Counted from the first letter of the stretch, positions 16,403 through 47,446 are shown. The stretch: DNA of 64,000 bases from Planctomycetota bacterium (GCA_025459175.1 JALORC010000072.1:1-64000), one strand, 5' to 3'. Numbers and translations: made by a program. Notes: generated by a model from the sequence alone, not told the origin.

Positions 16403-18330
16403 ATGTGCGCGCTGTTTCGCCGGTGGCTGGTGGCAGGATGCCTCGCGATGCCGGTGGTCGGACAACAACCGACTGCCGAGGTGCTCGATCTGCCGGCGCT
16501 GTTGCAGCGGATGGTCGATCTCGATCGCTTGTGGCAGCCGCCGGTGGCCGGGGAGCGGTGCGTGCAGTTCTCGAGCCACGACCGCCGCTCGGCCAGAGGG
16601 CCCGGCGATCCCGGGGCGTGGTATGCGAACGACGATCGTGGTCACTATCTGCGCGTCGTCGAGCGCGATGGCGGTCGCGAACACGTGCTGGTTGATGTCG
16701 CCGGCCCCGGCTGCATCGCGCGGATCTGGTCGGCGAACCCGACCGGCACGTTGCACTTCGACCTCGACGGCGAACGGGTCTGGAGCGTCGACTTCGCGGC
16801 TACCTGCCGATCGCGTTCGGCAAGTCGCTGGTGGTGTCGGCGACGGCGGCGGATCTCTACTACGCGGTCGATGTGGTGCGCTGGCCGGCCGGGCAGCGCG
16901 TGCAGACCTTCCAGCCGGCCCAGCTGCGCGATCACGCGGCGGCCGTGCAGGCGTTGGCCAGCGCCTTCCCGAGCGCCGAGCCGCCGTTGCGCACGCAACT
17001 GTTCGCCGCCGCCGGGGCCGTGCGCACCGAGGTGACGGTGCCGCCGGGGCGATTGGTGCGGCTGGTCCGGCTGTCGTTGCCGGCCGACGTCGCGGCCGCG
17101 GACCGGCGCGAGATCGCGCGCCACAGCGTGCTGGTCGTGCACTGCGGCTTTGAGCAGACAGTGCGGGTGCCGCTGGCGGACTTCTTCGCCGGCGGCCCGG
17201 AATGGTCGCCGCATCCCGGTCGAGCGCTTGCGATCCGTGGCGACGTCGCCTTTTGCGCGTGGCCGATGCCGATGCCGCGCGGTGGGCGTCTCGAGATCCA
17301 GTGTGATCCGGACTACGGCGAGTTGTCGCCTCGCTTCGACGTAGTCGAAACGGAGCCATTGACCGCGGCCGACCCGCTGTTGTTCCGCGCCAGCTATCAC
17401 CTGGCGAAGGCCCAGCGCACGCGTCCATTCGGCGATCACCTGGTGCTCGACGCGAAGGGGCAAGGACGCTTCGTCGGCTGCACGCTGACGGTGCGCAATC
17501 CGTCGCAGATCTGGTGGGGCGAGGGCGACGAGAAGTTCACCGTCGACGGCGAGGCGTTCCCGTCGTGGTTCGGCACCGGCACCGAGGACTACTTCGGCTA
17601 CGCGTGGTGCGATCCGACGCCGTTCACGGCGCCGTTCCACGCGCAGGTCGCCTGCCAGGGGCCGCGGAACTTCGGCTTCACGACGCTGCACCGCAGCCAC
17701 GTGCTCGACAGCGTGCCGTTCGAGAGTTCGTTCCGGTTCGAGCTCGAACGCTGGCACTGGGTCGAGGACGCGGCGATCGACTACGCGACGGTCGCCTACT
17801 GGTATGGCGCGCCGGGGGCCACCTCCGGCTTGCCGGAGGTGCCGTCCGCGGCCGAACGTGAGCTGCCGCGGCTCGAGGCGCCGAAGGTGCTGGTCGTCGA
17901 CGGAGCGCTCGAAGGCGAAGCGCTGGTGGTCAGCAGCTGCAGCGGCGGGGTGCACGAGGTGCAGGACCTCGGCATCTTCGGGCCGGTGTGCTCGCAGGAT
18001 CGCAACCGCTGGTGGCGCGATGGCAAACCGGGCGACGCTTTGGTGCTCGAACTGCCGGTCGGCAAGGCGGGGCGGTATCGCGTGCACGCGGCGTTCGTGA
18101 TGGCCGACGACTTCGGCATCGTGCAGGTGCAGGTCGCGGGCAAGGCGCTGGGGGCGCCGTTCGACGGCTACGCGGCGCAGATCCGCAGCAGTGGACCGCG
18201 GGAGCTCGGCGTGCTCGACTTGCCGTCCGGTGTGGTCGCGTTGCGGCTCGAACTGCTGGGCAAGAACGCGGCGGCGAAGGCGAGCCACATGGTCGGGCTG
18301 GACTACGTGCGGCTGGAGGCGATCGAATGA
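16403..18330 (+). pseudogene. DUF2961/GH172-family exported protein, frameshifted by internal deletion
   Basis: Starts MCALFRRWLVAGCLAMPVVGQQ (signal peptide). Frame 1 carries the family N-terminus (AGPGCIARIWSANPTGTLHFDLDGE...WSVDF) to about nt 16797. The next family block, GYLPIAFGKSLVVSA, is in another frame from about 16798 and continues unbroken to 18330. It includes FGTGTEDYFGYAWC and a C-terminal beta domain. Family members usually have a few dozen residues between WxxxF and YLPI; here they are missing, so this looks like an internal deletion whose length is not a multiple of three. GH172 enzymes act on fructan and arabinan-type glycosides. Either a pseudogene or a sequencing/assembly error; the downstream part alone (GTG 16831) would lack part of the fold. 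Confidence 0.75.
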
Positions 18331-37655: not shown

Positions 37656-37683
37656 GACGCCGGCGCGAAGGCACGCGGGCGTC
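37656..37683. terminator. Weak hairpin between convergent genes
   Basis: GACGCC pairs with GGCGTC across a GC-rich loop, in the gap after the kelch gene stop; overlaps the first bases of the minus-strand gene's stop region. Only 6 bp. Confidence 0.25.
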
Positions 37684-40600
37684 ACTTCACCTGCAGCTCG
37701 AACTCACGGAAGCGCACCTCGGTCGGCCCACCGCTGTGCAGCTGCAGTGCGATGACCCCGCGCTTCGCCAACGCCGCATCGTCGCGGTCGACGCACAGCT
37801 GGTCATTGATCCAGGTCCGCACCCGACTGCCCTCGGCGACGATGCGATAGCGATTCCAGTCGCCCTTAACGACGTGCTGCTCGCCGCCCTGTGCCTCGAG
37901 CAACCCGCGGCCGTGCTCCTCGTACAACTTACCCCACCAGCCCGGCCCGATGTCGGCCTGCGGGCCCTTCACATCACCATCGGCGAGCACTTCACTGCGG
38001 AACTGCACGCCGCTGTTGCCGGCGTCGCCTTTCAGCTTGACCTCGAACGACAATTCGAAATCGCCGAGCAGCAGATGGCTGCGCGCGAAGTCGTTGCGCG
38101 GCAGCCCGGTGGTCGAGCGCCCGACGATCTCGCCGTCCTCGACCGACCAGATCGCCGGATCGGCGTCCCAACCGCCGAACAGCAGATGCACGTTGCCGGG
38201 CTCCGCGCGCAGTGGCACCTGCGTCTCACTGCGCAGGTAGGCGATCAGATCGCGCACGTCGTCGGCCGACATACCGTCGAGCTGCCCCGGCGGCATCAGC
38301 GACACCTCGAGCAACTGCTTGCTGTCGATGTCGGCTTTGGCGACCACCTGCGCGTACGCCTGCGACTTCACCGTCACCGCGGTGTCGGTCTCGTCGGTCA
38401 GCATGCCCATCACGACCCCGCCGCTCTTCAGTTTGACCTGCGCCATCATGTAGTCGCGCGCGACCTCGCGCCCCGGATCGAGGATGTTGCCGAGCAGGTA
38501 GTCGAGGTCGCGCCGGTTGCTGCCGGTCAGGTCCGGACCGAACGCGTAGCCCTGGCCGAACAGCTGGTGGCAGGCGCCGCAGGTGCGTGTGTACAGCGCG
38601 CGGCCGTGCGGCAGATCGGCGGCGGCCAGCACCTTTTCACCGAGCCTCTGCTTCCAGTCGGCGATCTGCTGCTGCACCTGGCCCGACAGCGCGGTGCTGC
38701 GGCCCCAGACCGCGGCCAGCCGCTGCTGCAGCGCCGGGTCCCCGAGCTGGGCGAGCTGCTGGCGCAGCGGCGCGTCGAGCACGTTCTTGTCGACGGTGCC
38801 GGCGGCGATCGCCTCGAGCAGCGACTGCGCCCACGCCGGTCGGCTGCACAGCGTCGCGGCCGCGACCGGTCGCCGGGCGGCCGGCAACTGCGGCCACTTC
38901 GCCAGCAGCGCCGCCGGCACCGCGTCGTCGTCGAAGGTGGCCAGCGCGCGCAGCGCCCGCTCGCCGAGCTCGGCGTCGTCGAGCAGCTGCAGCACGAACG
39001 CGGTGCGGGCGTCCGAGGGCAACCGGACCAGCAGCTCGAGCGCACGCTCGCGGCGCTTCGGCGGGGCCTCGGCATCGGTGCACAGCCGGGTCAGCAGCGG
39101 CAGCACCGAGGCATCGCCGAAGGTCGCCCCGACGAACGCGAGCCGGTCGTCGATGGCACGGTCGGCGCATTGTGCGGCGCGGCTGCGGGCCGCCGCCCAG
39201 TTGGCCGGCATCGGCATCGACGCGTGCCGCTGCAGCGCCTGTTCGGCCGGCTCCAACACCGCCGCCACCGCCGCCGCATCGGGCGCGGTGCGGATCGCGT
39301 CGCAGACGGCAGCGAGCGCTTCGCTACCGGCTTCGCACAGCCGCCGCACGACGAACTCGAACTGCCGCGGCAGGCGGCTCTGCCGGGCGAGCCGCAGCGC
39401 TCGCTGCGGGTCCGCGGCCAGCGCCGGCTCGATGCCGAACCAGATCATCTTCGGCAGATTGTGGTCGGCGGCGTCGTCGGCGCGCACGACCAGCGCTTCG
39501 GCGATCGCCCAGCGGTGGGCGAGCGGCATGCGCTGCATCGCCGCCGCGAGGTAGAGGCGCACCACCGGCGACGGATCGGTCTTGGCCATGGCGGCGAACG
39601 TGGCCGCCTCGGCGTCGCTGAGCTGGCGATCCTCGAGCACGAACTGGATCGTGAACGCGCGCACGTGTTCGTCGCGGTCCTGCAGCAAGCGCGCGTGTGC
39701 GGCGGCGTCGAGGGCGCCGAGGGTGTGCAGCGACCACAGCGCGCGCAGCCGTTGGTGGCTCTGTGCCTGTGGCTGATCGAGCGCGGCGTGCAGCCTCGGC
39801 GCCACCGCGATGGCCCGGCGTTCGTGCAGCAAGCGACGCGCGGTGCGCGCGGTGTACTCGTTGGCGGCGAACAGCTCCTGCGCCAGCTCCTGGTCGCCGA
39901 GCGCGCCGAGGTCGCGCGGCGCCTGCACCGCGTCGCCATAGGCGATCTTGTAGATGCGGCCGTTGCTGCGGTCCCACACCTCGATGTCGTTGTGATGGCA
40001 GGTCTGGTCGTCGTACCAGTCGAGCAGGTAGACGTTGCCGTCGTGCGCGTGGGCGAGGGCCACGCCGAGGAACCAGTCATCGTGCGCGAGCAGGAAGTCC
40101 GGCCCGTGGCTGCCGACGTAGCCCGAGCCGCGGCGCGTCAACACGTCGTGGTTGAGCCGGTGCCCGTGCAGGTTGTCGATCAGCAGCGCGCCGTCGTACT
40201 GCAGAGGCCAGCGGCCACCGCGGTAGATCAATGCGCCGCAGTGAGCGTGGCCGCCGCCCTGCGCATCGGAGCGTTCGTTGCCGTCGTGCGCGTTCTTGCC
40301 CTGCCAGTGCAGGTGGTCGGCGATCGTGTCGAGATCGTCGTAGACGAACGGGTGGAAGTGACGGCCCGACTGGCGGTGGTAGTAGCCGCCCTGGATCACG
40401 TGGTAGAGGTGCGGGATCACGCACGCGGTGAGGAACGCCTGGCCCTGCGCGTCGAAGTCGATGCCCCAAGGGTTGCTGGTGCCGTGCGCGAACACCTCGA
40501 ACGTGCGCGCGGTCGGATGGAACCGCCACACCGCCGCGTCGAGCGGCTGCCGCTGCTCGTCCGGGCAGCCCGGAGCGCCGACCCGTGAGTGCGTGAACAC

Positions 40601-42823
40601 CCCATGGCAGCCGTAGAGCCAGCCGTCGGGGCCCCACGTGAACGAGTTCAGCGTCTCGTGGGTGTCCTCGTAGTGCCAGCCGTCGAGCAGCACTTCGGGC
40701 GGGCCATCGGGCACGAGGTCGTGATCACGATCGGGCACGAACAGCAGTTCGGGCGCGGCACCGATGTAGACGCCACCGAAGCCGACCTGCACGCCGCTGA
40801 CCAGGTTCAGGCGATCGAGGAACACCGTGCGCTGGTCGAAGCGCCCGTCGCCGTCGGCATCGGTGAACACGACGATGCGGTCCTGGCCCTCGCCGTCCGG
40901 GCGGCGGCGCGGGTAGCTGTGCGCCTCGGCGACCCACAGCCGACCGCGTTCGTCGACGCATATCGCCACCGGCTGCGTGACGTCCGGTTCGGCGGCGAAC
41001 GGCTGCACGCGGAAGCCCTTCGGCACCGTCATGCGTTCGGCGGCGGCCGCGGCCGGGAAGTCGCCGGTGCGTTGCGAACTGCCGTGCAGGCGGAAGTCGT
41101 CGAAGTTCAGATGGCCCCAGTGGCCGCTGGCGTCGTCGACGAGCCGCACGAACAGCGTCTGGCCCACGTGCGCGGTGAGATCGGCGTCGACGACCTTCAT
41201 GCGTTCGTGGTCCTGGCCTGAAGCAGTGAACACGACCACGCCGTCGCCGGCGCGCACGATCTCGACCCGCGTGCTCGGGTCGCGGCCGCCGCCGATCAGG
41301 AAGCTGGCGTGGCTCTGGTCGAGCACGAACGGCGCCGACGTCAGCGTGCCGCGCGGTGCGTCGGAGCCCTTGGCCTCGTAGCTGCCGAGCCAGTGGCGGC
41401 CGGTGTGGCCACTCGTCATGTCGCTGCGGCGCGCGGCGACCGTGTCGCCGGTGCTGAGCTGCGCGAACGCGTCGCCGCTGACGGTCCAGTCGCGCAGGTC
41501 GCCGAACTCGAAGTCGAAGTTCAGCGCGCGACCGGCGGCGTCACGGGGGACCGCACCACCGCGCGGCGAAGCGCGCTGCTGCAGCAACTTCGCCAGTGCC
41601 ACCCGTTCGGCGATCTGCTGCGCCAGCGGGTCCGCGGCGGGCGGCTGCTGACGGTGCACGAAGATGCCCATCTTGTTGGCGACGACCACGTCGGCGCTGC
41701 CGTCGCCGTCGACGTCGGCGGCGGTGACCTGGGTGCCGACGCCGGAGTGTTCGTCGATCTGGTGCGGGACCCAGCGCACCGCGCCGGGCTCGCGCACGCA
41801 GCGGAACCACAGCAGCCGGGCGCGATCGCGATCGACCGGATCGCCACCGGCGTGGGCCCAGTAGCGGTTGCCGGTGATCACGTCGAGGCAGCCGTCGCGA
41901 TCGACGTCGGCGCTGCACAGCGCGTGCATGCCACCGACCACGAGCCCGTGGTCGTTGTGCTCGGGCTTGCTGCCGACGATGCCGTGGCGTTCGAACGAGA
42001 TCGTGCTGCCAGCGCGGTGTTGTCGGTGCCAGCACAGACCGTAGCCGTGCGCGTGATCGCTGGTGACGACGTCGGGCAGCCCGTCGCCGTCGACGTCGAA
42101 CACCAGCATCTGCGCGCCGCCCGGTTCGCAGAACTTCACCGCGTGGTGCTGCCACTGCGGATCGCCGGCCAGCGACGCCGGCTGCTGCCACCAGCCGTGC
42201 TTCCACAGCACGTCGAGCCGGCCGTCGCCGTCGAGGTCGCCGGTGCCGAGTCCGTGCGTGAAGCGGCCGCCGAGGCCGGCCGCCGACAGCGGGTGCCAGG
42301 TCCACGGCGCGTCGGGCTGCCGCGGGTCGAGGGTCGCATAGCCGAGCCGGTCCTGGAACATGCACACCAGCTCGGGCACCCCGTCGCCGGTCAGGTCGGT
42401 GAAGGTCGGCGACTCGTTGTCGACGCCGTCGAACCCGACGTGCGGCTGCCACGGCCCGCTGCCGCCGCGTGGATTCCGGTACCAGATCGCCTGCTTGCCC
42501 GGGAAGCCGATGCGCAGCACGTCGTGCCAGCCGTCGCCGTCGAAGTCGTGCACGAAGCTGAAGAAGTGGTCCGAGTAGACCTTCGGGTCGTAGGCGACCG
42601 GCGCGTAGAGCTCGAATCGCTCGGTGAAGCCCGGCCCGCGGAACCAGAACGGCCCGGCAGTCACGTCGACGTGGCCGTCGCGGTCGAGGTCGGCCGCGGC
42701 CGCACCTTCGGCGAAGAAGCGTTCGTCGAGCACCTGCTTCTGGAACGTGCGCCCCGCGGTCGGTGGTGATTGCGGCTGGGCCGGCAGCGACAGCGAGAGC
42801 ACGAGGGCGGCGAGGCAGAGCAT
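37682..42823 (-). CDS. Fusion: FG-GAP propeller, PVC dehydrogenase, HEAT, cytochrome c, DUF1080
   Basis: 1,713 residues with signal MLCLAALVLSLSLPAQ. Order: FG-GAP/VCBS repeats (~35-390, DLDRDGHVD, DVDGDGLPD); a beta domain (~430-575); PVC-type membrane-bound dehydrogenase propeller (~600-965, GFRVQPFAAEPDVTQP, RLWVAEAHSYPRRRPDGEGQDRIVVF is its start region; TIGR02604-like); HEAT-like helical repeats (~970-1400); c-type cytochrome with CGACH (Cys1415, Cys1418, His1419; TIGR02603-like); and a C-terminal DUF1080 domain (~1545-1713, LLFGGWDADPAIWSVEDGEIVG). DUF1080 is the 3-keto-disaccharide hydrolase family. I infer periplasmic oxidation of a sugar with electrons passed to the haem and cleavage of a 3-keto glycoside by the same polypeptide. 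Substrate unknown. Confidence 0.92.
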   Translation of the reverse strand: MLCLAALVLSLSLPAQPQSPPTAGRTFQKQVLDERFFAEGAAAADLDRDGHVDVTAGPFWFRGPGFTERFELYAPVAYDPKVYSDHFFSFVHDFDGDGWHDVLRIGFPGKQAIWYRNPRGGSGPWQPHVGFDGVDNESPTFTDLTGDGVPELVCMFQDRLGYATLDPRQPDAPWTWHPLSAAGLGGRFTHGLGTGDLDGDGRLDVLWKHGWWQQPASLAGDPQWQHHAVKFCEPGGAQMLVFDVDGDGLPDVVTSDHAHGYGLCWHRQHRAGSTISFERHGIVGSKPEHNDHGLVVGGMHALCSADVDRDGCLDVITGNRYWAHAGGDPVDRDRARLLWFRCVREPGAVRWVPHQIDEHSGVGTQVTAADVDGDGSADVVVANKMGIFVHRQQPPAADPLAQQIAERVALAKLLQQRASPRGGAVPRDAAGRALNFDFEFGDLRDWTVSGDAFAQLSTGDTVAARRSDMTSGHTGRHWLGSYEAKGSDAPRGTLTSAPFVLDQSHASFLIGGGRDPSTRVEIVRAGDGVVVFTASGQDHERMKVVDADLTAHVGQTLFVRLVDDASGHWGHLNFDDFRLHGSSQRTGDFPAAAAAERMTVPKGFRVQPFAAEPDVTQPVAICVDERGRLWVAEAHSYPRRRPDGEGQDRIVVFTDADGDGRFDQRTVFLDRLNLVSGVQVGFGGVYIGAAPELLFVPDRDHDLVPDGPPEVLLDGWHYEDTHETLNSFTWGPDGWLYGCHGVFTHSRVGAPGCPDEQRQPLDAAVWRFHPTARTFEVFAHGTSNPWGIDFDAQGQAFLTACVIPHLYHVIQGGYYHRQSGRHFHPFVYDDLDTIADHLHWQGKNAHDGNERSDAQGGGHAHCGALIYRGGRWPLQYDGALLIDNLHGHRLNHDVLTRRGSGYVGSHGPDFLLAHDDWFLGVALAHAHDGNVYLLDWYDDQTCHHNDIEVWDRSNGRIYKIAYGDAVQAPRDLGALGDQELAQELFAANEYTARTARRLLHERRAIAVAPRLHAALDQPQAQSHQRLRALWSLHTLGALDAAAHARLLQDRDEHVRAFTIQFVLEDRQLSDAEAATFAAMAKTDPSPVVRLYLAAAMQRMPLAHRWAIAEALVVRADDAADHNLPKMIWFGIEPALAADPQRALRLARQSRLPRQFEFVVRRLCEAGSEALAAVCDAIRTAPDAAAVAAVLEPAEQALQRHASMPMPANWAAARSRAAQCADRAIDDRLAFVGATFGDASVLPLLTRLCTDAEAPPKRRERALELLVRLPSDARTAFVLQLLDDAELGERALRALATFDDDAVPAALLAKWPQLPAARRPVAAATLCSRPAWAQSLLEAIAAGTVDKNVLDAPLRQQLAQLGDPALQQRLAAVWGRSTALSGQVQQQIADWKQRLGEKVLAAADLPHGRALYTRTCGACHQLFGQGYAFGPDLTGSNRRDLDYLLGNILDPGREVARDYMMAQVKLKSGGVVMGMLTDETDTAVTVKSQAYAQVVAKADIDSKQLLEVSLMPPGQLDGMSADDVRDLIAYLRSETQVPLRAEPGNVHLLFGGWDADPAIWSVEDGEIVGRSTTGLPRNDFARSHLLLGDFELSFEVKLKGDAGNSGVQFRSEVLADGDVKGPQADIGPGWWGKLYEEHGRGLLEAQGGEQHVVKGDWNRYRIVAEGSRVRTWINDQLCVDRDDAALAKRGVIALQLHSGGPTEVRFREFELQVK

Positions 42824-42994
42824 GGCTTCCTTGGCCGCGGCGGCACGCACACCGGATCGGGATGCCCGCGGGGCCGGCGATTCTGGGCCTTGCCCCGATC
42901 GTGGCCAACAACCGTGTGGTGGGCGCGTGTCCCAAGTTTCTCGCGGCGGCTTTCGGCGCGTCCCGGCCGGCAAGGCAGCGCATAGTCCCCGCCG

Positions 42995-43843
42995 ATGCAC
43001 GCGCTGCGATCGATCCCCGTGGCCTTGGTGCTGGGTGCCTGCGCGAGTGCACCGCCGGCGCCGAGCGCCGAGCCGTTCGTGGTGATGAGCTGGAACGTGC
43101 GCTACGGCACCGCCAGCGACGGCGCCGACCGATGGGCCGAACGCCGCGATGGCCTGGTGACGGCGATCCACGCCGCCGCGCCGGCGATCCTCGGGGTGCA
43201 GGAGGCGCTGGCCCCGCAGCTCGAGTTCCTCGCCGCGCGGCTGCCCGGGCACATGCGCGTGGGCCAGGGACGCGAGGGCGGCGATCGCGGCGAGCACTGT
43301 GCGGTGTTCATCGAGGCGGCGAGGTTCGAGCTGGTCGAGCACGGGGATTTCTGGCTCAGTCCGACCCCGGAGCTGGTTGCGTCGACCGGCTGGGACGCCG
43401 CGTTGCCGCGCATCTGCACGTGGGTCGCGTTGCGCGAACGTGCGTCCGGCCGCGAACTGACGATCTGGAACACGCACTTCGACCATCGCGGGGCGGTGGC
43501 GCGCGAGCGTTCAGCGGAGCTGATTGCGCAGCGATTGGCGCTGCGGCCAGGTCCTCATCTGCTGTTCGGCGACTGCAACTGCGGCGAGCAGTCGGCACCG
43601 ATCGCGGTGCTGCGGCAGGCGGGGCTGCGCGACACGTTCCGCGACGTGCACCCGACGGCGACCGCGGTCGGCACGTTCCACGCGTTCCGCGGCGGCACCG
43701 GCGGCGACAAGATCGACTACGTGTTCGCCGATGCCGGCTTCACGACGGTGGCCGCGGCGATCCTGTCGCAGCCGATGGCGAGCGGGCGCTGGCCGAGCGA
43801 CCACCACGGCGTGGTGGCGACGGTCGTGTTCCGGGCGCCGTGA
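42995..43843 (+). CDS. Exported EEP-family hydrolase lipoprotein
   Basis: 282 residues. Lipobox LGAC with Cys16. EEP motifs: Asn34 in MSWNVRYG, Glu70 in GVQEAL, His in WNTHFDHRG, and SDHHGV at the end. The usual GDFN appears here as GDCN (FGDCNCG), keeping Asp and Asn but with Cys in place of the aromatic residue. It should hydrolyse a phosphoester in the periplasm or at the surface; substrate unknown. Divergent from the large fusion gene, convergent with the S9 peptidase. Confidence 0.85.
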   Translation: MHALRSIPVALVLGACASAPPAPSAEPFVVMSWNVRYGTASDGADRWAERRDGLVTAIHAAAPAILGVQEALAPQLEFLAARLPGHMRVGQGREGGDRGEHCAVFIEAARFELVEHGDFWLSPTPELVASTGWDAALPRICTWVALRERASGRELTIWNTHFDHRGAVARERSAELIAQRLALRPGPHLLFGDCNCGEQSAPIAVLRQAGLRDTFRDVHPTATAVGTFHAFRGGTGGDKIDYVFADAGFTTVAAAILSQPMASGRWPSDHHGVVATVVFRAP

Positions 43844-46162: not shown

Positions 46163-47446
46163 ATGCGCCTCGTCAGCATGGTCTGCCTCGCTTCGTTCGC
46201 CACCGCCCAGCAGCCGTTGCCGCCGGCTGCGAGTGCCGCGGAACCCAAGCCACTGTGGAACGGCACCGACCTGCACGGGTGGCGCGGTCTGCGCCACCAG
46301 GATCCGTATGCGTTGGCAGCGATGACCGAAGAGGCGCGGGCCACCCTGCAGGCCGAGGACCATGCGTCGATGCGCCTGCACTGGCGCATCGAGGGCAGCG
46401 AGTTGATCAACGACGGCCAGGGCGCCTACCTGACCACCGCGGACGACTACGGCGATGCCGAGTTCGCGCTCGAGTACCGCACCGTGGCCCTCGCCGATTC
46501 CGGCATCTACCTGCGCGGCTGCCCGCAGGTGCAGATCTGGGATTTCACCGAGGCCGGCGGCAAGTGGAAGCTCGGCGCCGACAAGGGCAGCGGCGGGCTG
46601 TGGAACAACGAGGTGCAGCCGCGCTTCCCGCTGGTGCTCGCCGACCGGCCGTTCGGACAGTGGAACTCGCTGCGGATCCGCCAGCTCGGCGCGCGCACGT
46701 GGGTCTGGCTCAACGGCCAGTGCACCGTCGACGGCGCGATCATGGAGAACTACTGGAACCGCAAGCTGCCGCTGCCGCCGAAGGGCCCGCTGCAGCTGCA
46801 GACCCACGGCGGCGAGATCCGGTTCCGCAATCTGACGGTGCGCGAGATCCCGCCGGCCGAGGCGAACGCGCTGCTGGCGGCACAGGGGGACGTTGGCTTC
46901 ACGCCGATCCTGCGGCAGGCGGATGCATTGGCGGGGGACGCCGGCAGCTGCGAGCTGGTCGGGGACGAGTTGCGTTGGCTGGCCGGCAAGGGCGGCACCG
47001 TGCACACGAAGGAGGTCTACGGCGACTTCGTCGTTCGCTTCGAGGTCAAGCTGCCGCCGGGGGGCAACAACGGGCTCGCGATCCGCTATCCGGGCGAAGG
47101 GGATCCGGCCTACACCGGGCTCGAGATCCAGGTGCTCGACGACAGCGCCGAGAAGTACGCGACGCTGCAGCCGTGGCAGTACCACGGCTCGGTCTACGGC
47201 TGCCTGGCGAGCCACCGCGGTTACCAGCGACCGGTCGGCGAGTGGAACTTCGAGCAGGTCACGGTGCGCGGTTCCCGCATCACCGTCGAGCTGAACGGCA
47301 CCATCATCGTCGATGGCGACCTCGCCGGTGCCGAGTCCAAGCTCGGCGACAAGCACTCAGGGCGGCTGCGCACCGAGGGTCACTTCGGCCTCGCCGGGCA
47401 CGGCGACGCGGTCGCGTTCCGCGGTCTGCGCATCAAGGCGCTGTGA
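46163..47446 (+). CDS. Exported tandem DUF1080 (3-keto-disaccharide hydrolase family) protein
   Basis: 427 residues. Signal MRLVSMVCLASFATAQQ. Two DUF1080 domains: ~28-232 (LWNGTDLHGWRG, GIYLRGCPQVQIWDF, GNRKLPLPPKGPLQLQTHGG-like block) and ~245-427 (VYGDFVVRFEVKLPPGGNNGLAIRYPGEGDPAYTG is its core start, ending HFGLAGHGDAVAFRGLRIK). Members hydrolyse 3-keto-glycosides made by oxidoreductases. The same domain ends the 1,713-residue protein 3.3 kb to the left, so the two may work on one pathway. It has its own promoter region, divergent from the S9 peptidase, and a strong hairpin 3 bp after the stop. Confidence 0.9.
   Translation: MRLVSMVCLASFATAQQPLPPAASAAEPKPLWNGTDLHGWRGLRHQDPYALAAMTEEARATLQAEDHASMRLHWRIEGSELINDGQGAYLTTADDYGDAEFALEYRTVALADSGIYLRGCPQVQIWDFTEAGGKWKLGADKGSGGLWNNEVQPRFPLVLADRPFGQWNSLRIRQLGARTWVWLNGQCTVDGAIMENYWNRKLPLPPKGPLQLQTHGGEIRFRNLTVREIPPAEANALLAAQGDVGFTPILRQADALAGDAGSCELVGDELRWLAGKGGTVHTKEVYGDFVVRFEVKLPPGGNNGLAIRYPGEGDPAYTGLEIQVLDDSAEKYATLQPWQYHGSVYGCLASHRGYQRPVGEWNFEQVTVRGSRITVELNGTIIVDGDLAGAESKLGDKHSGRLRTEGHFGLAGHGDAVAFRGLRIKAL

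Follow-up and report, generated by a model that had tools for sequence, protein, structure and literature searches.

A conserved planctomycete fusion of propeller, haem-c and DUF1080 domains, a possible modular carbohydrate-acting haem protein

PVC-type haem-binding CxxCH proteins share a core of TIGR02604 propeller, helical repeat and haem-c domain. Such proteins are numerous in planctomycetes (Paludisphaera borealis alone has 18 homologues of the Lac161_ORF7 type; PMC5352709), and almost all of them are without known function. The one characterised relative found, Lac161_ORF7 (AGW45552), is a 109-kDa protein of the order TIGR02604-HEAT-cytochrome c, and its description has no DUF1080 (PMC5342196). 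After IPTG induction and purification from E. coli BL21(DE3)pLysS it was reported to release glucose from lactose with a Km of 1.8 mM and a kcat of 13.2 per s, and PQQ is not mentioned in the passages considered (PMC5342196). The pH/temperature profile reported there and complementation of S. meliloti by the cosmid speak against host background (PMC5342196). In at least one reported case DUF1080 is thus unnecessary for cleavage, and a sugar is a likely substrate for the core. To our knowledge, E. coli does not make PQQ. The expression host is lacZ-positive and was induced with IPTG, and the Km lies near that of LacZ, so a host enzyme could have contributed to the activity.

Further systems resemble single domains of the locus described here. 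In the soluble PQQ glucose dehydrogenase sGDH, Arg228 and Asn229 flank the PQQ ketones (PMC6881810). DUF1080 proteins that have been characterised take 3-keto sugars as substrates (PMC9007349; PDB titles), and in Thermogutta proteins DUF1080 annotation has been noted to overlap with that of CBM66 (PMC5673643). The di-haem cytochrome Kustd1711 (7zs0) has mutant structures whose parent is a high-potential cytochrome (PMC11791136).

The window analysed was the whole 64,000-nucleotide stretch of a Planctomycetota bacterium (GCA_025459175.1 JALORC010000072.1:1-64000). It had been predicted to encode one secreted polypeptide in which an FG-GAP propeller, a PVC-type dehydrogenase propeller, a c-type cytochrome and a DUF1080 domain were fused in an intact frame, and which would oxidise a sugar and then split the resulting 3-keto glycoside. 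Translation gave a single open frame on the minus strand with one stop and no internal stops, and Pfam/NCBIfam matches confirmed the fusion (Table 1). The order was leader, FG-GAP propeller, a module at residues 428-590, TIGR02604 propeller, helical repeat, haem c and DUF1080. The FG-GAP repeats matched over the cut-off, as did PF23500/TIGR02604 at 593-963 (TIGR02604 388.2 bits, cut-off 122.2), TIGR02603 at 1402-1532 (125.8 bits, cut-off 68.15) and PF06439 at 1551-1710 (94.1 bits, Pfam gathering score 26.8), so that both curated PVC-type models and the predicted DUF1080 were found within one chain. The N-terminus MLCLAALVLSLSLPAQ had a hydrophobic leader resembling a signal peptide, and from its look secretion is probable; a single polypeptide with haem-c and several sugar-related modules, probably secreted, was to this extent supported. 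An alternative start was a GTG at 42850, and the mechanical ORF extended upstream to an ATG at 43486, its extra part overlapping an opposite-strand gene of the endonuclease/phosphatase family.

Table 1. Features of the fusion gene and of the separate tandem-DUF1080 gene in the window
Feature	Position	Strand	Remarks
Whole gene	37682..42823	-	1,713 residues; AAGGA upstream of ATG 42823
FG-GAP beta-propeller	41639..42751	-	residues about 25-395; conserved among full-length homologues
Beta-sandwich module	41054..41542	-	residues about 428-590; absent from the original prediction
TIGR02604/DUF7133 propeller	39935..41017	-	residues 603-963; soluble PQQ sugar dehydrogenase fold
Helical (HEAT/ARM-like) repeat	38645..39895	-	residues about 977-1393; from DSSP of the model; absent from the original prediction
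Haem-c domain TIGR02603	38228..38620	-	residues 1402-1532
CGACH haem motif	38567-38581	-	residues 1415-1419
Probable axial Met1510	38294-38296	-	
C-terminal PF06439 (DUF1080)	37688..38191	-	residues about 1545-1712; haem-fused subfamily
Separate tandem-DUF1080 protein	46163..47446	+	

The closest homologue (L033) was 67% identical from end to end. Searching 199 genomes from the phylum revealed end-to-end homologues in at least 10, and ten genomes besides L033 carry them at 42-50% identity; because all of these align end to end, chance, a chimera or an assembly join was ruled out. A scan of the collection gave 80 named loci, chiefly from Planctomycetota and Verrucomicrobiota and one from Bacteroidota. 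The fusion is thus an old, conserved and widespread family, present in many Planctomycetota and with relatives in Verrucomicrobiota; the same set of domains occurs together in many public genomes, and a search of the open-access literature found no paper describing it. The family is real, conserved, under-studied and sugar-related.

Compared with Lac161_ORF7 as described, the fusion adds the FG-GAP propeller, a beta-sandwich associated with GH32 and GH116, and DUF1080. Among 107 related proteins the propeller-helical-haem core was constant in intact members and FG-GAP was found at either end. DUF1080 lay at the C-terminus in 45, on the N-terminal side in 6 and was absent in 46 of the 97 proteins classified, a count that left out several truncated-contig rows; two pairs of rows duplicate one genome. 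Some relatives had DUF1080 between FG-GAP and module 428-590. On a propeller tree, scoring DUF1080 as C-terminal, N-terminal or absent required 10 changes, a number not to be pressed since the tree was quick and many of its branches weak. The six N-terminal-DUF1080 proteins formed one clade placed among DUF1080-less proteins, and L029 and L030, with a C-terminal DUF1080, lay in a distant clade. The genome that holds the window also encodes a second DUF1080 and haem-c protein with another domain order, absent from the original prediction (L125/L177; L177:812-4771:-).

Module 428-590 carries no Pfam name, and its neighbours and sequence suggest a beta-sandwich fold. In other genomes of the phylum its profile matched next to GH32 in L127 and within the GH116 proteins L128, L129 and L130. 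In many DUF1080-less relatives the slot after haem c was taken by an alternative module of about 155 residues, whose profile found the C-terminus of the window's GH172 (DUF2961) protein (16696-18327, iE 1.6e-35). That this module was a diverged DUF1080 was rejected (hhalign probability 4.6%). Five relatives (L046, L049, L054, L064 and L101) had this GH172-type module between FG-GAP and module 428-590 and retained DUF1080. Modules that are interchangeable and also occur on GH32, GH116 and GH172 enzymes are as expected of accessory sugar modules.

The TIGR02604 propeller was modelled over residues 592-978 from 47 homologues, with high confidence (pLDDT 88.2, pTM 0.90). Its best solved relatives were PQQ sugar dehydrogenases (E down to 4.5e-11, TMq mostly 0.5-0.6), the top fold matches including 2ism, 3das, 6jt5, 3a9g and 1cq1 (probability 1.00); the Foldseek list also contained the non-enzymatic HHIP, virginiamycin B lyase and DFPase. 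The PQQ site was mapped by profile alignment with E. coli YliI and the GSDH proteins of this genome (hhalign probability 97-99%), giving S783, N784 and H886 as the equivalents of sGDH Arg228, Asn229 and Lys377, and L919 and V921 were placed as those of Arg406 and Arg408 by their spacing to a GPDG motif. We take Lys377, Arg406 and Arg408 of sGDH to be the basic residues that hold PQQ. The fusion shares with the soluble PQQ dehydrogenases (sGDH 1cq1, Asd 2g8s, AA12 6jt5) the propeller fold and the Asn229 equivalent, N784, which was kept in 47/47 homologues, but the other positions were wholly or mostly replaced: that of Arg228 was Ser/Thr in 47/47, that of Lys377 His in 45/47, that of Arg408 V/L/I/T/F and basic in 0/47, and that of Arg406 Q/R/I/M/L/V, with R in 10. 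A canonical PQQ dehydrogenase was rejected on these residues. PqqE exceeded the cut-off in 0/21 genomes carrying the family, a control panel likewise being without a positive; scavenging of PQQ by the organism is possible. The predicted sugar oxidation was not supported, despite the PQQ-dehydrogenase fold. Eight residues (E633, H722, N726, N784, H861, N884, D935 and D938) were identical in 47/47 homologues and, judged by conservation, look like an active site other than the canonical PQQ site.

In the haem-c domain, the predicted CGACH was present, and C1415, C1418 and H1419 were kept in 11/11 full-length homologues. M1510 aligned with the Met mutated in the Kustd1711 structures 7zs1 and 7zs2 (M292C, M292H), and cytochrome-c assembly genes were found in 21/21 genomes. 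The haem-c domain, including this Met, is common to Kustd1711 and the fusion, but the fusion has one such domain, in a very different protein, where Kustd1711 is di-haem. Going by these motifs, the fusion protein very likely binds haem, and electrons may be transferred through haem c.

We favour, at what we judge to be about an even chance, a secreted modular carbohydrate-acting haem protein with a catalytic propeller/haem core and shuffled accessory glycan modules. The TIGR02604 propeller, helical scaffold and haem-c domain would form the catalytic unit, and the FG-GAP propeller, the beta-sandwich and the DUF1080/CBM66-like domain would bind or position glycan, being gained, lost and reordered around the constant core. 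As the most likely step, a glycoside would enter the propeller funnel, putatively lined by E633, H722, N726, N784, H861, N884 and D935, and be transformed there without canonical PQQ. If that step were oxidative, electrons would exit via haem c. A 3-keto product, should one form, would pass to a different enzyme, such as the neighbouring tandem-DUF1080 protein. Were the core a non-PQQ sugar enzyme, a large share of planctomycete glycan turnover would become testable.

Alternatively, glycosidase or lyase activity might reside in the propeller itself, at a metal or acid/base site within its funnel, haem c serving a secondary, regulatory or electron-disposal role. The invariant E633, N726, N784, N884 and D935 would suit such a site, the Foldseek matches DFPase and virginiamycin B lyase are metal-dependent propeller enzymes, and Lac161_ORF7, with the bare core architecture, freed glucose from lactose when made in E. 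coli, with PQQ unmentioned in the passages considered. Haem c in all intact relatives argues for a redox step, however, and the lactose assay may carry host background; we regard this explanation as rather unlikely.

The C-terminal domain was the part predicted to cleave the 3-keto product. All haem-fused DUF1080 domains, irrespective of where they sit in the protein and with that of L125/L177 among them, were separated in a tree from the sampled standalone domains (SH-aLRT 94); since the standalone sample was weighted toward high-scoring Pfam matches and standalone proteins near the fused type exist, the branch is a distinct subfamily and not exclusive to fusions. An enzyme-like class matched BT2157, 8tda, 8rr2, 9fbe and 8v31 at E 2e-27 or better, and in 11/11 of its members an E, a Q, two D, a K and a Y were invariant. 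In the fused domains the E had become Q in 13/13 and the Q had become D in 12/13, a D was absent in 11/13, the K was absent in 13/13 and the D of QDH was changed in 12/13, as judged by conservation within the enzyme-like class; a difference at the Tyr may be a misalignment. Thus the fused domain has the PF06439 family and the fold of the eliminase/hydratases (BT2157 3osd, 8tda, 8v31, 8rr2, 9fbe) and shares N1603, S1604, N1657, Q1694 and H1696 with them, but it is shorter, belongs to a separate clade and has the invariant E/Q/D/K/D positions changed or missing.

A fold search with the fused domain gave 4jqt as the best match, then CBM66 structures and then the eliminase/hydratases. TMt was 0.71-0.76 for CBM66 (targets of 161-165 residues) and about 0.45-0.50 for the 3-keto eliminase/hydratases, which are larger proteins with extra elements. 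The domain resembles CBM66 of Bacillus subtilis (4azz/4b1l/4b1m) in size and fold, the two being 18-20% identical. By sequence it matched the N-terminal repeat of 4jqt and not the BT2157-like C-terminal repeat, and no BT2157-type entry was among its best 60 matches at E<=1. We take it to be a module that binds sugar or has diverged in some other way. A CBM66-like fold is compatible with catalysis, because catalytic DUF1080s have the same fold; a BT2157-type catalytic domain was disfavoured by the separate subfamily and the changed class residues. The predicted 3-keto cleavage was likewise not supported: most class-invariant residues are changed or lost, and in fold the domain comes at least as near to CBM66 as to the eliminase/hydratases. 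Databases label the core proteins dehydrogenases and the fused domain a 3-keto-disaccharide hydrolase, and the residue tests caution against both labels.

Oxidation, electron transfer and cleavage had further been proposed to be channelled within the one protein. A joint model of residues 592-1713 gave confident individual domains (pLDDT 85.5), but its pTM of 0.66 means that no fixed domain arrangement was shown, and a fixed or rigid channel between the domains was left without support.

The complete scheme of the original prediction, with C3 oxidation of a disaccharide in the propeller, electron uptake by haem c and cleavage of the resulting 3-keto-glycoside by the fused DUF1080, all in one chain, accordingly appears improbable. 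It can draw on the PQQ-dehydrogenase-like fold, the haem c, the fusion or adjacency of DUF1080 to the core in several arrangements and the 3-keto sugars used by characterised DUF1080 proteins (PMC9007349). Against it stand the PQQ-site replacements in nearly all 47 homologues, the missing PqqE hits (its panel having no positive control), a fused DUF1080 that lacks the conserved residues of the characterised class and has no BT2157-type entry in its best 60 sequence matches at E<=1, the many cores without DUF1080 and the pTM of 0.66 of the joint model. What the original prediction named as evidence against it, a DUF1080 module without the catalytic site of characterised 3-keto hydrolases or a dehydrogenase without any cofactor pocket, was partly observed. 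Because both proposed parts lack key residues of known enzymes, the two-step scheme lacks proof and its details are probably incorrect.

Standalone relatives of the haem-fused DUF1080 lay beside propeller/haem genes in a few genomes (L168, L169 and L172). With one fused-DUF1080 subfamily across the arrangements and standalone relatives adjacent to the core, the link to a redox core could be catalytic and not mere binding. There is a small chance that the core is a new non-PQQ class of carbohydrate-transforming redox enzyme, abundant in Planctomycetota and Verrucomicrobiota, and the haem-fused DUF1080 its dedicated partner for processing or capturing the product; if so, glycoside activation and cleavage would be coupled in one chain by undescribed chemistry. 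A surface-binding or electron-relay protein that is no enzyme on sugars, its propellers and beta-sandwiches being used for adhesion, is very doubtful: the PQQ-dehydrogenase fold includes the non-enzymatic HHIP, and adhesion is a frequent role of FG-GAP and beta-sandwich modules, but the dense invariant polar set in the propeller and the modules common to glycosidases favour the carbohydrate-acting enzyme.

A wider carbohydrate program had been suggested from two other genes of the window. The tandem DUF1080 protein at 46163 was real by Pfam, and its second repeat retained the enzyme-like class motif E.Q.LD. If a 3-keto step exists, this protein is a better candidate for it than the fused domain. 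Its gene was conserved as a neighbour in two relatives only, adjoining the fusion gene in L033 (63% identity) and lying beside the related gene in L017 (59% identity); this part of the suggestion held, and a local carbohydrate locus did not. The genes near the fusion encode an S9 peptidase, a ribonucleotide reductase, an endonuclease/phosphatase-family protein and a kelch-like protein, and 806 kb of flanking DNA contained 5 DUF1080 ORFs, no obvious enrichment, so a carbohydrate locus defined by gene neighbourhood was rejected. At least two of these five ORFs were apparently fragments of broken core genes. The GH172 gene, predicted to be broken at 16403, does look frameshifted, with PF11175 at 17155-17805 and the N-terminus, from about 16403, in another frame.

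Five invariant residues of the window protein's propeller (E633, N726, N784, N884 and D935) resemble, as a set, the metal site found in DFPase/gluconolactonase propellers and may be a counterpart of it. Propellers of this type were also among the Foldseek matches to the window protein's propeller.

The positions of DUF1080 and FG-GAP varied among relatives. In six proteins (L080, L085, L088, L093, L097 and L108) from Planctomycetota and Verrucomicrobiota, which formed a single clade in the propeller tree, it was N-terminal or lay between FG-GAP and the 428–590 module, and in two others (L018 and L019) the FG-GAP propeller was shifted to the C-terminus, behind DUF1080. At three loci (L168, L169 and L172) DUF1080 genes adjoined separate propeller/haem-c genes, overlapping or convergent with them, a split version of the fused association.

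Within the window's own genome, a second haem-c protein bearing DUF1080 (L177) differed in domain order from the window protein. In L122, a ThuA domain, another sugar-related domain attached to the same core, was joined to a DUF7133 propeller and haem c. ThuA was also fused to DUF1080 in L001; this DUF1080 was of the enzyme-like class (161 bits), and the L001 protein is, within this genome, a better 3-keto-enzyme candidate than the window fusion.

The window GH172 (DUF2961) gene was apparently frameshifted, its N-terminus lying in a different frame, and its PF11175 domain was almost whole. The C-terminal module of its protein was the one substituting for DUF1080 in sister haem proteins.

Coordinates of the features in the window and on other contigs of its genome
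Feature	Sequence	Position	Strand	Domain order
GH172 gene	window	16403-18330	+	
PF11175 domain	window	17155-17805		
Propeller with the invariant residues	window	39935-41017	-	
L177	C201	812-4771	-	DUF1080 near N-terminus, alpha-rhamnosidase-resembling stretch, weak TIGR02604-like propeller match, CAACH
L122	C116	633-4568	-	
L001	C162	358-2088	+
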